Below are positions 35,744 through 63,957 of a stretch of DNA of 64,000 nt, in pieces. Position numbers and translations under genes: made by a program. Below the pieces are notes generated by a model. That model was not told the origin of the DNA and made no database searches. It saw only the letters and a program-made list of their open reading frames with translations. Origin of the DNA: Gammaproteobacteria bacterium (lineage in GTDB: Bacteria > Pseudomonadota > Gammaproteobacteria > Ga0077554 > Ga007554); the NCBI GenBank assembly GCA_023266055.1, contig JAHFRW010000010.1, forward strand, positions 1 through 64,000. The letters are read 5' to 3'. Position 1 is the stretch's first letter, and each line of letters begins with the position of its first letter.

Positions 35744-36811
35744 TTACTTTGACGAGAAGGTATGGTTAACACCCACAGAGAAGGATGAAACATCCTTGCC
35801 TGTTACGCCACCCACACCCTCAACCGTGTACTTGGCCGCAGAGTCGTTGCTGACCATGGTGTACAAAGCATAGGCTTCCGTGGTCTTGGACAGGGCATAG
35901 GACGCGCCCAATGCAAACTGGGTCGCACCGGTATCCGCCACACCACCCGTCTTGTCAGCCACGGCGAGCGCCGCTTTCAAGGTGATGGCATCCATCTTGT
36001 GCGCTACGTTCAGGTACCAGGCATCACGGTCATTGTTTGTACCGCCCTTGTCCGCACTTTCCCAGATGGCGCCAATGGTCGTCGCCCCACCCAAGGTAAA
36101 GGCACCGCCAATCTTCCATGCCGTAGCATCATCTGTTCCACCGGGAACAGTTGTAAAGGCGTTCAACGACTCATAAGCAGCCGTCAGGTAAAGTGGGCCC
36201 TGCGTGTAAGAACCGCTCAAGCTGTAGGCATCCTGGTCACTTGCGGCCGTGGTCAAGGGCAACTCATCGCTACCGCCAGGACGAGTGCTATAGGCTATCG
36301 CGCCCTTGAAACCACTGATGTCCGGCGATCTGTACTGAATGGAATTGTCAAACCGGCCACCGAAGGTAGCCTTGTCTGAATTAACCGCGCTTATAATTCC
36401 GTTATAATCACCACGGGTATCAACAAAGATATCCATTCCCTGGGTTGAATTCTTGTAGGGTGTATTGATACGCCCCGCCAGCACCGTGCCGAAACCACCG
36501 CTCAAACCCACGTAAGCATCACGTTTCTTGGAGCCCCAGGTGCTGGTATCAAACGCCACTTCCTGTTCAAACTGCCACATCGCTTTCAGGCCACCGCCCA
36601 GATCTTCATCACCCTTGAAGCCTAGACGTGAAGCATTGCTGCTAATAGCAATTGCCTTGTCTTCATATCCTGCTGCGGCGTCATCGTTGCTACTGAAATC
36701 CACTGACATACGGGCCTGACCGTATACTTCAACACCCGCCTGCGCCAGCACAGGCACCATGAATCCTGCACTTGCCACTATTACCGCCAATTTTTTATGC
36801 ATATTACTCAT
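35744..36811 (-). CDS. General porin 1 (355 aa)
   Basis: Signal peptide to VLAQA, then GVEVYGQARMSVDF, a typical first strand of 16-strand trimeric gram-negative porins (porin_4 type). It ends GVNHTFSSK: the penultimate strand aromatic is present, but the last residue is Lys, not Phe. AMWQFEQEVAFDTSTW and RDAYVGLSGGFGTVLAGR are porin landmarks (constriction loop 3 follows). Start chosen for the GGGGAG spacing; an ATG at 36802 is an alternative. Its last 150 or so codons are identical to porin 2 at DNA level. Confidence 0.87.
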   Translation of the reverse strand: MSNMHKKLAVIVASAGFMVPVLAQAGVEVYGQARMSVDFSSNDDAAAGYEDKAIAISSNASRLGFKGDEDLGGGLKAMWQFEQEVAFDTSTWGSKKRDAYVGLSGGFGTVLAGRINTPYKNSTQGMDIFVDTRGDYNGIISAVNSDKATFGGRFDNSIQYRSPDISGFKGAIAYSTRPGGSDELPLTTAASDQDAYSLSGSYTQGPLYLTAAYESLNAFTTVPGGTDDATAWKIGGAFTLGGATTIGAIWESADKGGTNNDRDAWYLNVAHKMDAITLKAALAVADKTGGVADTGATQFALGASYALSKTTEAYALYTMVSNDSAAKYTVEGVGGVTGKDVSSFSVGVNHTFSSK

Positions 36812-36902
36812 CTCTCCACTCCCCAATTAAGCGTTCATCTCCTAAAATATCTTGCAAAAACAGCATACCAACACTTTATGACAACTCGGTGACAACCACC
36901 AT

Positions 36903-36943
36903 AAAAAAACGGGCAGCCCTTCATAAAGACAAGGCTGCCCGTC
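36903..36943 (-). terminator. Rho-independent terminator of porin 2
   Basis: On the minus strand: GACGGGCAGCCTT, loop, AAGGGCTGCCCGT followed by seven T, about 70 bp downstream of the porin 2 stop. It is similar in design to the porin 1 terminator. Confidence 0.88.
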
Positions 36944-37010
36944 TATACCTCCCCCATACCAACGGGGAAAGCGCACCACAAGCGGGGTTACTGCGCCCCC
37001 GCTCTATGCT

Positions 37011-38072
37011 TTACTTGGATGAAAAAGTATGATTAACACCCACAGAGAAAGATGAAACATCCTTGCCTGTTACGCCACCCACACCCTCAACCGTGTACTT
37101 GGCCGCAGAGTCGTTGCTGACCATGGTGTACAAAGCATAGGCTTCCGTGGTCTTGGACAGGGCATAGGACGCGCCCAATGCAAACTGGGTCGCACCGGTA
37201 TCCGCCACACCACCCGTCTTGTCAGCCACGGCGAGCGCCGCTTTCAAGGTGATGGCATCCATCTTGTGCGCTACGTTCAGGTACCAGGCATCACGGTCAT
37301 TGTTTGTACCGCCCTTGTCCGCACTTTCCCAGATGGCGCCAATGGTCGTCGCCCCACCCAAGGTAAAGGCACCGCCAATCTTCCATGCCGTAGCATCATC
37401 TGTTCCACCGGGAACAGTTGTAAAGGCGTTCAACGACTCATAAGCAGCCGTCAGGTAAAGTGGGCCCTGCGTGTAAGAACCGCTCAAGCTGTAGGCATCC
37501 TGGTCACTTGCCGTGGTTGTCATGGGCAGATCATCACTGGAGTAATTGGTGCTATAGGCTATCGCGCCCTTGAAACCACTGATGTCCGGCGATCTGTACT
37601 GAATGGAATTGTCAAACCGGTTGTTAAACGTGGCGCTGTTTGAGTTAACCACACCCATAATTCCATTGTAATCGCCGCGGGTGCTGGCAAACACATCCAT
37701 TGGCTGGGTTGTATTCTTGTAAGGTGTATTGATCCGTCCAGCCAACACCGTACCAAATCCACCGCCTAATCCGATGAACGAATCACGCTTCTTGGAACCC
37801 CAGGTGCTGGTATCAAACGCCACTTCCTGTTCAAACTGCCACATTGCCTTCAAGCCATTGCCCAAATCTTCATCACCCTTGAAGCCAAGACGTGACTTAT
37901 TGCTGGTGATAGAAATTGCCTTGTCTTCAAACCCTGCTGCAGTGTCATCGTTGTTGCTGAAATCCAGGGACATGCGTGCCTGACCGTAAACTTCCACACC
38001 CGCCTGCGCAGCTAACGGTGCGGCCAGAACACCTGCTACTGCCAAAGCAATTAACTTCTTTTGCATTTTCAT
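37011..38072 (-). CDS. General porin 2 (353 aa)
   Basis: Opens MKMQKKLIALAVAGVLAAP, signal to AAQA. Porin plan as in its neighbours, with SFIGLGGGFGTVLAGR before loop 3. The 5' half differs from porin 1 at scattered sites, whereas from about 37053 to 37511 the two genes appear base-for-base the same. GGGAG precedes the ATG. Followed by its own terminator. Confidence 0.88.
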   Translation of the reverse strand: MKMQKKLIALAVAGVLAAPLAAQAGVEVYGQARMSLDFSNNDDTAAGFEDKAISITSNKSRLGFKGDEDLGNGLKAMWQFEQEVAFDTSTWGSKKRDSFIGLGGGFGTVLAGRINTPYKNTTQPMDVFASTRGDYNGIMGVVNSNSATFNNRFDNSIQYRSPDISGFKGAIAYSTNYSSDDLPMTTTASDQDAYSLSGSYTQGPLYLTAAYESLNAFTTVPGGTDDATAWKIGGAFTLGGATTIGAIWESADKGGTNNDRDAWYLNVAHKMDAITLKAALAVADKTGGVADTGATQFALGASYALSKTTEAYALYTMVSNDSAAKYTVEGVGGVTGKDVSSFSVGVNHTFSSK

Positions 38073-38241
38073 TTGCTCCCTATAAATTTAAGTGCATGTT
38101 AAACAGAAATAAAGCCACAAACATCAGATGGCATGGGGGCAACTTTACAAGGCTGACCCACGAAGATGCAACACCTTTCGTAACGAAAACCACAACCGAC
38201 GCCAAAGTGTAGCAAATATGATACAGCGGGTAAAAATTAAA

Positions 38242-38464
38242 GTGTGTCGCCGTGCTCGCGAACCATTAATTGGGACATCCCCGTCCCAATTAATGACTGC
38301 GCCCGGCAACAAGTACGCCTGCAGCGCCCGGACAGGCCTGTCGTTGTTTCCCCATGTTGTCTATACGGGTGCTCTCGCACTCATTCCGACAACACAGGGA
38401 AACCTCGGCTATCCGGGGCTTGCCCGCCACCGCTCGCTTTCGCGTCGCCCTCCCTGGCGGGCGC
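38242..38464. repeat. Structured repeat element, left copy (inverted partner at 39867-40146)
   Basis: Begins GTGTGTCGCCGTGCTCG and ends CCCTGGCGGGCGC. It folds into at least three hairpins: ATTAATTGGGA/TCCCAATTAAT, a long GTTTCCC...GGGAAAC stem containing GGGTGC/GCACTC, and GCCCGCCA/TGGCGGGC. It starts 14 bp after the stop codon of porin 3. The right copy keeps each hairpin although the stem bases differ. Confidence 0.7.
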
Positions 38465-38478
38465 TTCTGTATCTTCTA

Positions 38479-39543
38479 TTATTTGGATGAGAAGGTGTGG
38501 TTAATGCCCACCGAAAAAGATGAAACGTCTTCACCCAATACACCATTTACGCCATCAAGACTGTATCTGCCAGCAGAGTCATTACCCACCATGGAGTACA
38601 GGGCATACGCCTCGGTGGTCTTGGACAAGGCATACGACCCGCCCAGCGAAAACTGATTAGCCCCGGTATCTGCCACGCCACCAGTTTCGTCCGCCATGGC
38701 ATAGGCAGCCATCAGAGCGATGTCACCCATCTTGTGCTTCACGCTTAGGGTCCAGGCGTCACGATCACCATTTGTAGCGGTGGTACCGCCCATATCCAGA
38801 CTTTCCCAAATGGCGCCGAAGGTGGTGTGGCTCATCAGTGTGTAGCTGCCGCCGATCTTCCAGGCAGAAACATCATCACCGCCCGCACCCAAGGCATTCC
38901 ATGACTCATAACCGGCGGTCACAAAAATAGGGCCGCTGGCGTAAGTGCCGCTCAAGCTGTAGGCATCTTCCTTGCCCTGGGCTGTCGTCATCGGCAGGCT
39001 GTCGCCCGTCGCGGCACTCGGCACAATATACGCCGCCATCGCGCTAAAGCCACTCATGTCCGGTGACGCATACGCCACCGCGTTGTCTGCGCCATTCTCA
39101 TCATTCCAGCCGGTATTCCCATTCAGCGAACCTATAATGGCGTTGTTATCGCCACGGGTGTTGCGGAAGGGATCCAGGCCACTGGTCGCAATGCGGTAAG
39201 GCGTGCCCAACTTGCCCGCCAGAACCGTACCAAAACCGCCGCTCAAACCGATGTAAGAAGCACGACGGCTGTCATTCCAGTTGCCAGTGTCAAAAGCAAC
39301 TCCCTGCTCAAACTGCCACAGAGCCTTCAAGCCACCGCCCAGGTCTTCATCCCCACGGAAACCAAGACGTGAGCGATTGCTGGACACGGCAAGGGCGCTG
39401 TCTTCATTCGTAGCCACTGGATCGTTATTACTGTTGAAATCCAGGGACATACGTGCCTGGCCGTAAATTTCAACGCCCGCCTGTGCGGCTAACGGCGCAG
39501 CCAAAACACCTGCTACTGCTAAAGCAATCAACTTCTTTTGCAT
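38479..39543 (-). CDS. General porin 3 (354 aa)
   Basis: MQKKLIALAVAGVLAAP signal identical to porin 2, then GVEIYGQARMSLDF. More diverged than porins 1 and 2 in loops and C-terminal half, with the same ending (GINHTFSSK). AGGGAG lies 8 bases before the ATG. It is flanked by inverted copies of a structured repeat, the only gene between them. Confidence 0.88.
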   Translation of the reverse strand: MQKKLIALAVAGVLAAPLAAQAGVEIYGQARMSLDFNSNNDPVATNEDSALAVSSNRSRLGFRGDEDLGGGLKALWQFEQGVAFDTGNWNDSRRASYIGLSGGFGTVLAGKLGTPYRIATSGLDPFRNTRGDNNAIIGSLNGNTGWNDENGADNAVAYASPDMSGFSAMAAYIVPSAATGDSLPMTTAQGKEDAYSLSGTYASGPIFVTAGYESWNALGAGGDDVSAWKIGGSYTLMSHTTFGAIWESLDMGGTTATNGDRDAWTLSVKHKMGDIALMAAYAMADETGGVADTGANQFSLGGSYALSKTTEAYALYSMVGNDSAGRYSLDGVNGVLGEDVSSFSVGINHTFSSK

Positions 39544-39866
39544 TTTACTCGCTCCCTTAAAAAATGTATTTTATGCGTACGAAAACATTACGTTCCAGAT
39601 GGTAATACAAAGGTTAGGTTGACGGTGCGCAACACCAAATGCAACATTTTTTATCAGTAGGGCGATAAATTGCACCAAAATGTGGCAAATATGAGACGGT
39701 GCGCCAAAAATTAAAAGGGGAAGCATTTATACAAAAAATTAAGGGCGGCTGAAATCAGGGGCCTGCAACAAAACAACCCCGCTGCTCTGGGCTAGCGGCC
39801 AGTAATTTTTGCCCTGTGTCGCCAAAGGCAATGTCAACCGTATGGCCAGATCAAGACAGGCCGCCG
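39544..39866. promoter_or_regulatory. Upstream region of porin 3
   Basis: About 320 bp without a gene, AT-rich next to the porin start. It should hold the porin 3 promoter. No operator recognised. Confidence 0.35.
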
Positions 39867-40146
39867 GCGCCCGCCAGGGAGAGCGAGGCGAAAGCGAGCG
39901 GTGGCGGGCACCCCCCGGATAGCCGAGGTTTCCCTGTGTTGTCGGAATGTGTGCGATAGCACACGTGTAGACAACATGGGGAAACAACGACAGGCGTAGC
40001 GGCATTGTGGTCGCCATGACGCGCGGCGTAGTCGCGTGTCGTGGCGAACGCAGGCCTGTCCGGGCGCCGAAGGCATACTTGTTGCCGAGCGCAGTCATTT
40101 TAGGGATTGGGATATCCCAAAATGGCTCACGAGCACGACGACACAC
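39867..40146. repeat. Structured repeat element, right copy (inverted)
   Basis: The complement of this stretch aligns with 38242-38464 from end to end, apart from an extra 57 bp that itself forms a hairpin (GCCA.GAC.CGCG / CGCG.GTC.TGGC). Hairpin stems are conserved with paired changes: ATTTTGGGA/TCCCTAAAAT replaces the first stem and GTGTGC/GCACAC replaces GGGTGC/GCACTC. It starts 3 bp after the stop codon of the VOC gene. Confidence 0.7.
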
Positions 40147-40149
40147 TTT

Positions 40150-61163: not shown

Positions 61164-61318
61164 AGCACGCGTAGCTCGGTAGCGCTGGGTTGACAAATCC
61201 AGAAAATAATGGGGTCACAGGAATAATGGGTAGGGTAGAGAGCAGCCGCTCGGCTACCCTCCCTCATCAAACCGTGCATGCGCTACTAACGCACACGGCT
61301 TTCCGATGTTGTTCACAC

Positions 61319-62851
61319 CTAAGCATGCGCCGATCTCCAGCCTGCTGTTGTTGGAACTTTGTATAAGCCGTAACGCTGATACAGCTGTTGACTTGGAAAG
61401 CGCCCCAGACCGATCCCTCGGTCTTTTACTTTATGCCGCTTCATTAGGTGAGTTCGCAGGCGTTCTTCTGCATACGTCCTGACCTTGCTTAAAGCACTGC
61501 TAGAGTTTTTATAATGGAAGTAGTTTGTCCAGCCACGCAGGCTTGCATTCATGCTGCCAACTATATCATCCAACGGGATCGGGGTACGATCTCTGGTCGT
61601 CAATTGTTTCATGCGCTCTTTGATTTTTGCAAGTGATTTGGTCGACGGACAAACATGAGCGTATCGCTTGCCTGACTTCCTTCCCTTACTCACTCTGATT
61701 TCAAATCCTAAGAAATTAAAGCTGCCCTGCCGTGCATCGACGATATGGGTTTTGGTCTCATTTAACTTGAGATCAAGCTTATCCATTATGTAGCGCATCC
61801 GTGCCAATGGCACATCTACTTTGCCTTTGCATAGCACGACGAAATCATCCGTATAACGAACAATTCGTGCTCCCAGTTTCTTATCTGGTTCATGCCTGTC
61901 CCAAATCCTGTCCAAAATATGTAGGTAGCAGTTGGCCAGCAACGGTTAAATGACACCCCCTTGCGGGGTGCCTATGCTGTTGGCTTTGCCACCACCCACG
62001 TTTCTCTTGGTGCCGTCCTTGTCCTGCTCTATTACCGGGGCTTTGAGCCAGAGTTTGATGATGTGGAGGATCGCTCCATCAACAATTCGCTCGGCAACAA
62101 CGGCCAGTAATTTTGCGTGGGGAATACTGTCGAAGTATTTCGACAGGTCGGCATCAATGACTTGGGTGTAACCTTGGTATAACGCGTCGGCTATTTTATC
62201 GAGCGCTTGATGGGCTGATTTCTTTGGCCGGAATCCATACGAATTCGGGCTGAAATCGGCTTCAAAAATCGGTTCAATGATGAGCTTGGTCACCATCTGG
62301 GCTACGCGGTCACGGATCGTCGGAATGCCTGGTGGACACAGGCTGCCATCCGCTTTGGGTATCATGACGCGCCGCACCGGGCTTGGACTGTAGCTTTGAT
62401 TTTTAACCCAGATTTTCCATTAGCCTCGTAGCGAGGGTGCGCAAGGTGCTGAAGATGGGCGAGAAAAGTTGAAAAACAGGCGAAGGCGTAGTCACTCTAC
62501 GGTGACAGACTGTTTTTCAACTTTTCTCGCGCAAATTCAGTGCTTTGTGCGACCGCAGTAGAGTCTAATGGAAAATCTGGGTTTAAGGTCAGTGACTAGT
62601 TCCAACAAAAACGTGTCTATCCCTTCTCCGTTTTCTATGTCGTCAAAGTCGATCCCGTTAATGCCGGGACTGCCTTTGTTGGCGCGAACAAGGCGGTAGG
62701 CAAACATGAGGATGTCTGCCCGCCATACCTTGTCGTAGAGCGCGTAAAAGCGATAAGCCGGTTCTTGCTTGGCTTTGATATAGAGCTTCCTCTGTAGTGT
62801 CCTGATATTCTCAGAGGTAACTAGCACCATGGCAATCCCCTTTTCCTTCAC
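61319..62851 (-). pseudogene. ltrA: Group II intron reverse transcriptase/maturase, two lesions
   Basis: In order: an N-terminal RT-0/RT-1 region (AYRFYALYDKVWRADILMFAYRLVRANKGSPGINGID in outline), an interruption by a 175-bp MITE, then PVRRVMIPKADGS, ADFSPNSYGFRPKKSAHQAL, DADLSKYFDSIPH, GTPQGGVI-stop-PLLANCYL, and the catalytic VRYTDDFVVL (YADD box with Thr), thumb and maturase X domain to residue 600 or so. The in-frame TAA at 61943-61945 replaces the Ser normally following GGVI; a single base change from TCA would do it. Both lesions lie in an otherwise well kept gene. Confidence 0.88.
62407..62581. mobile_element. 175-bp MITE inserted in the intron reverse transcriptase
   Basis: Perfect 17-bp terminal inverted repeats CCCAGATTTTCCATTAG at both ends, flanked by a 5-bp direct repeat TTTAA (62402-62406 and 62582-62586) that duplicates the target. 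Internal inverted repeat GCGAGAAAAGTTGAAAAACAG / CTGTTTTTCAACTTTTCTCGC. No coding capacity. Removing it restores the reverse transcriptase frame (DLKNQSYSPSP). Confidence 0.92.
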
Positions 62852-63258
62852 TCTTTGGTTGCATCAACAAAGCAGGGCTGGCCCCTCGCTTCGCTCTCCC
62901 CTCAATCGTGGTTGTGTTGTCCGTCGATCTCAAGCAGTACTATGAGCCCCTCCGACTCCCGTTACAGTCTGCTGCGTTTTCGTTTCCTTATACGCAGCAG
63001 TCGATGGTCTCCCCACCACCGCAACGGGCCGGAAGCCAAGGGCAATAAATCTTCGAGAACATGCCGACCTTGCTACCCCGGGAGTCGATGCGCGCCACTT
63101 CCGTTATTTCAGCGCACATCCAACGGCCTTCCCCTTCTGACCACAGGGTCGGCTTCTCCAATTTAGTTTACGAGGCTACGTGTAGGTTCACTTGCGTTAC
63201 GGCCTGCTCTCTTGCTGTGTGAAAACTCACGACCTCGTGTTACCACAACGCCGCTTTC

Positions 63259-63957
63259 TCATGCTACCAAGGCGTACGGACAATTCCTTGGACGGGACTT
63301 TAACTCGCTAGATTTACTGCTGTTACTGCGAACAGTCAGGCCTAACATAAGGAGGCCGACAATGAACACCACAAATACAGTCCACCTCAGTGAATCCTTG
63401 ATAATCGAGATATTGATGTCGGCCGCTGCAACATAGTAATTACCCTGTGGTGACTGAAAGCGAACCAGAACACTGCGAAAGGTGCCCCAGCGATCGGTGT
63501 AGGTATCGAACAATGGCTTACCTGATTGCATAGCGGTCCAAAATACCGGCGTACCCTCAGGATAATCTGTCCAGTAATACGACACATTGTTGTATTTGAG
63601 ATCATCGGCGGCGTAGCTGCTGGATGTGAAGTATACCGTGCCATGCTGTATGACATAAATGTACAGATAAGCAAAACCTCCCGTCGCGACATGGCGGGAC
63701 ATCTTATCCATATTCATCTGATCTTCTGTACGACGGATGCTATCAGCCGATATCGCGCCGTCGTGGAAATCTGTTGGCAATATCTTCGGCAGATTATTTG
63801 CCACCGCGACCAGCCGCGCATCGATACCCGACATATATTCATGGCGGCTGATCACATAAATTGCTGTAGCACTCAGCACCACACCAAGAAAATAAATAAC
63901 CACCGCCAACAGCAAGCGCGGGGCGTGTATTCTATTCTGTTGAATCGACAGGGCCAT
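63259..63957 (-). pseudogene. Membrane sensor-domain protein cut by the group II intron
   Basis: ATG at 63957 (MALSIQQNR) with GAGGGG upstream. A first transmembrane helix (LLLAVVIYFLGVVLSATAIYVI) and a periplasmic Cache-like domain of about 130 residues (YYWTDYPEGTPVFWTAMQSG; WGTFRSVLVRFQSPQGNYYVAAADIN) are followed by a second helix (WTVFVVFIVGLLMLGLTV). It then enters non-family sequence and ends. The expected cytoplasmic output domain (kinase, GGDEF or methyl-accepting) is missing on this side of the intron, so it is called a 5' gene fragment. Confidence 0.65.

Follow-up and report, generated by a model that had tools for sequence, protein, structure and literature searches.

The window, a 64,000-nucleotide stretch of a gammaproteobacterial genome, carries three tandem genes for Porin_4-type porins at positions 35744–39543. 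Porin genes 1 (35744–36826) and 2 (37011–38072) are identical over roughly their C-terminal halves, which suggests recent gene conversion. The third porin gene is the only gene enclosed by two repeat copies in opposite orientation; these positions, given in the initial annotation, were confirmed, and the ends of both copies were refined by comparison of all copies (Table 1). Further downstream, the minus strand harbors a group II intron (61230–63301; Rfam RF02005 and RF00029), whose reverse transcriptase frame contains one in-frame TAA and which is unrelated to the repeat.

Table 1. Features of the repeat pair and its surroundings at the porin 3 locus (positions in the window).
Feature	Position	Strand	Basis
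Repeat copy 1, 227 bp, variant without the middle ~50-bp hairpin	38239..38465	+	Ends set by all-copy comparison
Copy 1 left palindrome module (GTGTGTCGCC ... CGGCAAC)	38239..38310	+	Alignments A1/A3, models
Copy 1 central hairpin (GTTTCCCC..GTTGTC..GGGTGC/GCACTC..GACAAC..GGGAAAC)	38346..38403	+	Covarying helices 5-7
Copy 1 right terminal hairpin (GCCCGCCA ... TGGCGGGC)	38422..38462	+	Covarying helix 8
Copy 1 right junction NNNG (TCTG)	38466..38469	+	106 of 108 surveyed junctions have G at +4
Repeat copy 2, 284 bp, full length	39866..40149	-	Ends set by all-copy comparison
Copy 2 left palindrome module	40081..40149	-	Alignments, models
Copy 2 extra middle hairpin, missing in copy 1	40000..40045	-	
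Copy 2 central hairpin	39928..39985	-	Fold and covariation
Copy 2 right terminal hairpin	39869..39909	-	Fold and covariation
Copy 2 right junction NNNG (GGCG)	39862..39865	-	
Porin 3 gene (Porin_4), between the copies	38479..39543	-	Pfam PF13609, E 5e-46; synteny
vapC-type PIN toxin gene remnant, at right end of copy 2	39739..39866	-	Comparison with G001

The right-hand 129 bp of the two copies are 94% identical, and copy 2 has an additional hairpin of ~50 bp. Folding against shuffled sequences gave z-scores of −5.9 for copy 1 and −5.3 for copy 2. The proximity to stop codons described earlier holds for copy 1 at its right end and for copy 2 at its left end; as a general rule, a preference for insertion after stop codons was rejected, because by rough ORF calls a gene end lies within 15 bp of only ~7 of 37 copies in the genome.

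Two genomes of the same genus (G001 and G002) lack both repeats and carry porin 3 in the same orientation as here. On its 3′ side, both have hairpin-rich sequence from which the repeat is absent. On the other side, G001 has an intact antitoxin–PIN pair (L245, 4277–5049; PIN and Phd_YefM Pfam matches), and of the PIN gene only the last part is left here, adjoining copy 2, indicating that a deletion accompanied or followed insertion of this copy. Copies 1 and 2 probably arose as separate insertions of a single small mobile element, which measures ~280 bp and encodes no protein. If porin 3 expression were affected, through the transcript's 3′ end, we would regard this as incidental.

The source genome (G000; 2.7 Mb in 87 contigs) contains ~37 copies of the repeat, with 34 matches to the left module. 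A plain DNA search detected it in five of seven genomes of the same family, comprising all five from two sister genera (G003–G007) and neither G001 nor G002 from the same genus; 48 genomes belonging to other families yielded no hit. With R2, a covariance model built on the left palindrome (cut-off E ≤ 0.001), we searched 369 genomes sampled across Gammaproteobacteria and obtained matches in 19 genomes including the source, several of them with many identical copies; the weakest matches, not all of which were read as loci, may include chance hits. In the R2-matching loci that were read, the modules follow one order: the left palindrome, with its loop GGGACATCC, comes first, then a box (GCCTTCGGC), the middle hairpin, the central hairpin built around TTTTGTCT and, last, a right hairpin that finishes near CTCTCCATGGC. 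In the distant genome G334, at least 71 near-identical copies were identified with a covariance model of the right half. Almost all of them share one score and are located at contig ends, as expected of a recent repeat that breaks the assembly. The suspicion that the pair belongs to a mobile repeat family was thus borne out by the ~37 copies, the absence from two same-genus genomes, the precise empty sites described below and the load of G334.

None of 72,556 plasmid and 50,697 phage records gave a family match for the queries tried, and spread on plasmids or phages was rejected on these grounds, one diverged copy having been found on a viral contig. This full-length copy lies at 428–712 of a 65-kb contig (IMGVR_UViG_3300021511_000007; L432), and its right junction also consists of three bases followed by G (AGCG-ATCG). 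Rfam returned no match to the repeat in the window at gathering score; at E ≤ 1 in 11 loci, the hits were confined to tRNAs, a ycf2 match that falls on these tRNAs, and eukaryotic miRNAs with low scores. Core palindrome strings had no literature match, which is weak evidence as subscription papers lay outside the search. The family, folded, protein-less and distributed across Gammaproteobacteria, is apparently undescribed.

Comparison of the copies defines an element of ~280 bp whose ends are AAAGTGTGTCGCC / TGATAGTGTCGCC on the left and, on the right, GGCGGGCGCC followed by NNN-G. The two ends are unrelated sequences, without terminal inverted repeats, and internally deleted copies retain both. 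At the right junction, three bases followed by G were found in 106 of 108 cases (29/29 in the source genome, 13/13 in order mates, 8/8 in G142 and 56/58 in G334), with A or T at position +5 in 25/29 junctions of the source genome and 48/58 of G334; the left flank has no fixed base. Because the G334 copies are nearly identical up to the junction, NNNG belongs to the target rather than to the repeat.

Empty sites were available for two copies in G005, L186 (empty in G006, G007 and G003) and L184 (empty in G007). L186 reads CAACTACA|element|AACGCGGATTAC, and its empty site CAACTACAGACGCG(A/G)ATTAC in G007 and G003 and CAACTACAGATGCGGATTAC in G006; L184 reads CTCCGCAT|element|ATTGTACAG, and its empty site CTCCGCATTTTGTACAG. 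In both comparisons the flanks join without duplication and the first right-flank base differs. The empty sites also contain the +4 G, including the L186 site in G006, where GATG stands against GACG. Target site duplications were rejected on the evidence of these two sites and of the flanks at large, in which left–right k-mer matches were not above shuffled pairing. Copies were inserted precisely, without target duplication and almost always three variable bases before a G. Judging from the two empty sites, insertion may also alter one base at the first right-flank position.

In G142, a diverged member of the same superfamily (C1:1945217-1945503; L412) splits an IS200-type transposase gene (Y1_Tnp). 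Joining its flanks restores the conserved reading HVHM/CLSIPP with the expected base present, so the one-base replacement seen in both empty sites does not occur there. Another copy in this genome lies inside an apparent dicarboxylate transporter gene, read by eye.

The nearest known kinds of repeat are REP/BIME sequences with their RAYT (PMC2817692, PMC6006769) and the stem-loop repeat families (PMC2267715). REP, BIME and REPIN sequences are likewise extragenic, hairpin-forming and present in many copies without terminal inverted repeats, and REP-type repeats are targets of IS elements (PMC1525189), as is the present repeat. Such likeness raises the question of whether these are REP/BIME-type repeats moved by a RAYT (TnpA-REP) Y1 transposase, an account with which the lack of target duplication, the lack of a plasmid or phage record and the occurrence of Y1_Tnp genes in all eight genomes of the order also agree. 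These eight, however, include the element-free G001 and G002, and no repeat copy adjoins the Y1 loci compared within the order. Moreover, Y1_Tnp was not found in G334, with its at least 71 copies, or in G333, G238, G259 and G098, whereas genomes with REP/BIME carry a RAYT gene that is usually repeat-flanked. The architecture differs as well: the present element is 280 bp long rather than 20–65, comprises four hairpin modules with a strict right junction NNNG, and lacks the GTAG or GTGG guide tetranucleotide found at the foot of the 21–65 nt REP hairpin. We regard mobilisation by a RAYT as unlikely.

Elements derived from IS200/IS605 (PATE-like, non-autonomous) share with the repeat precise insertion without target duplication and hairpins near both ends. 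They have a fixed 4–5 nt target beside one end, whereas the present repeat has a near-invariant base only at +4 (G), a preference for A/T at +5 and a free left flank; by co-occurrence, it does not require a Y1 gene. BOX, ERIC, YPAL and NEMIS (catalogued in PMC2267715) are similarly modular and folded, measure 80–300 bp, include internally deleted forms and occur in tens to hundreds of intergenic copies, but the families in that catalogue are listed species by species, and the present one extends over many gammaproteobacterial families, all under a single junction rule. MITEs moved by DDE transposases are also small, protein-less and dispersed, and are mobilised in trans, as we propose for the repeat; unlike the repeat, they have terminal inverted repeats and target site duplications. 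For IS91/ISCR or Helitron-like (Y2) elements a Y2_Tnp gene is expected, and this is missing from most genomes checked: it was not found in G000, G003, G004, G006, G142, G334 or G333.

No ORF recurs beside or inside the copies across ~100 loci, and a gene carried next to or within the element was rejected on that basis. On co-occurrence, the Y1, Y2 and reverse transcriptase families were rejected as universal mobilisers, all three being absent from G334, the most loaded genome. As G334 is a draft of 270 contigs that is 98% complete, from which a gene could be missing, this is good but not final evidence for true absence.

The initial annotation had quoted paired stem changes between the two copies and suggested selection on a folded form. 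The paired changes are real, and covariation extends well beyond them. In an alignment of 29 full or near-full copies, 91.9% of cells are paired and 23 of 52 pairs show changes on both sides. Double-change cells numbered 96, against 28.0 in shuffles, and none of 500 shuffles reached this value, while sliding the pairing partners abolished the signal. The source genome alone yielded 19 such cells versus 3.6 in shuffles (0/1000). The fold is therefore under constraint or maintained by a copying process, in support of the suggested selection. Part of the covariation may nonetheless stem from quasi-palindrome correction, a hairpin-templated DNA repair that can itself make paired changes. In one copy (L151, 1498–1560, source genome contig C9), the left arm of the left palindrome duplicates the right arm exactly, unlike in all other copies, and this arm is likely a product of such correction. 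The left end was also considered as a required bidirectional terminator and rejected: the full AAAGTGTGTCGCC...GGCGACACACTTT palindrome occurs only in short forms, and a terminator scan remained at chance level.

Strong covariation and a complex fold would also characterise a structured ncRNA family, a possibility raised earlier for the pair; the copies would then be RNA genes or 3′-UTR elements, transcribed and maintained because their RNA has a function. An RNA under selection should tolerate G·U in one strand. Among the mismatches, however, G·T occurs in 15 pairs (17 cells) and A·C in 20 pairs (38 cells); G·T is no commoner than A·C, and the mismatch types are roughly balanced between the strands, so nothing here favours RNA in the repeat orientation. 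The surplus of A·C cells might indicate folding of the opposite strand, although by pairs the difference is small, and both strands fold well. Nearby promoters are no more frequent than by chance, copies lie in either orientation relative to neighbouring genes, one related copy sits inside a transposase gene, and same-genus relatives do without the repeat. Together with the lack of an Rfam match and the resemblance of L151 to DNA-level quasi-palindrome correction, these observations make an RNA function quite improbable.

Retroposition of an RNA in the manner of a SINE, copied by a group II intron or another reverse transcriptase, would be compatible with the RNA-like fold, the intron in the window and the absence of target duplication. 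Yet RVT_1 was not found in G334, G333, G259 or G004, all of which bear copies, and the wobble signature of an RNA is missing, so we give this origin very little credence. That the inverted pair lets the porin 3 segment flip, as a form of phase variation, is scarcely credible: the arms are 94% identical and 1.4 kb apart, but their longest exact match is only 37 bp, no recombinase lies close by, the remaining family members are dispersed singly, and the segment has a single orientation in the assemblies (not reads) of G000 and of the repeat-free G001 and G002.

The family is dispersed with fixed ends, its covarying hairpins are conserved, and it has amplified recently in other genomes. We consider it likely that the repeat is a non-autonomous mobile element whose movement depends on its folded DNA and on mobilisation in trans. 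Under the mechanism we propose, the folded single strand, probably of DNA, with its left palindrome, central hairpin and right terminal hairpin, would be recognised by an enzyme encoded elsewhere in the cell. This enzyme would cleave its target three bases ahead of a G, and the element would be joined with no staggered gap. Because unfolded copies would fail to spread, the structure would be retained, and we infer that copies decay by loss of whole hairpins. More tentatively, the repeat might stand for a widespread class of small folded mobile elements in Gammaproteobacteria. Their mover would be a recombination enzyme, perhaps a host protein, of a type not previously associated with small repeats, and it would insert them three bases upstream of a G with no duplication of the target.

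The repeats themselves are interrupted by insertion sequences. In G006 (L191, 1651–3345; L192, ~1737), a Tn5/IS50-like IS (ends CTGTCTCTTGATCACA), assigned to this family by eye and having no Pfam hit, lies inside repeats at AGGCTATCC. Both of its junctions in G006 carry this 9-base site. In G007 (L194, L195), a related sequence (CTATCTCTTAATCACA) interrupts several copies at the identical base. Another element splits copies in G005 at GCCGCTA (left halves L185 and L198; right halves L187 and L188). It carries an ORF beginning MKHTATVIGL as well as inverted repeats in sub-terminal position (GGACTCCACCC/GGGTGGAGTCC), and probably belongs to the IS1111 type of the IS110 family, a class known for guide-RNA targeting of repeats.

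As insertion-sequence hot spots that mark at least one local rearrangement, the repeats shape genomes even without a function of their own. Small folded repeats abound in bacterial genomes, but to our knowledge the mover has been established for few families. With dozens of near-identical copies in a single genome, precisely defined ends, clean empty sites and a G that is near-invariant three bases beyond the junction, the present family offers a handle on the question of the enzyme that is directly testable.
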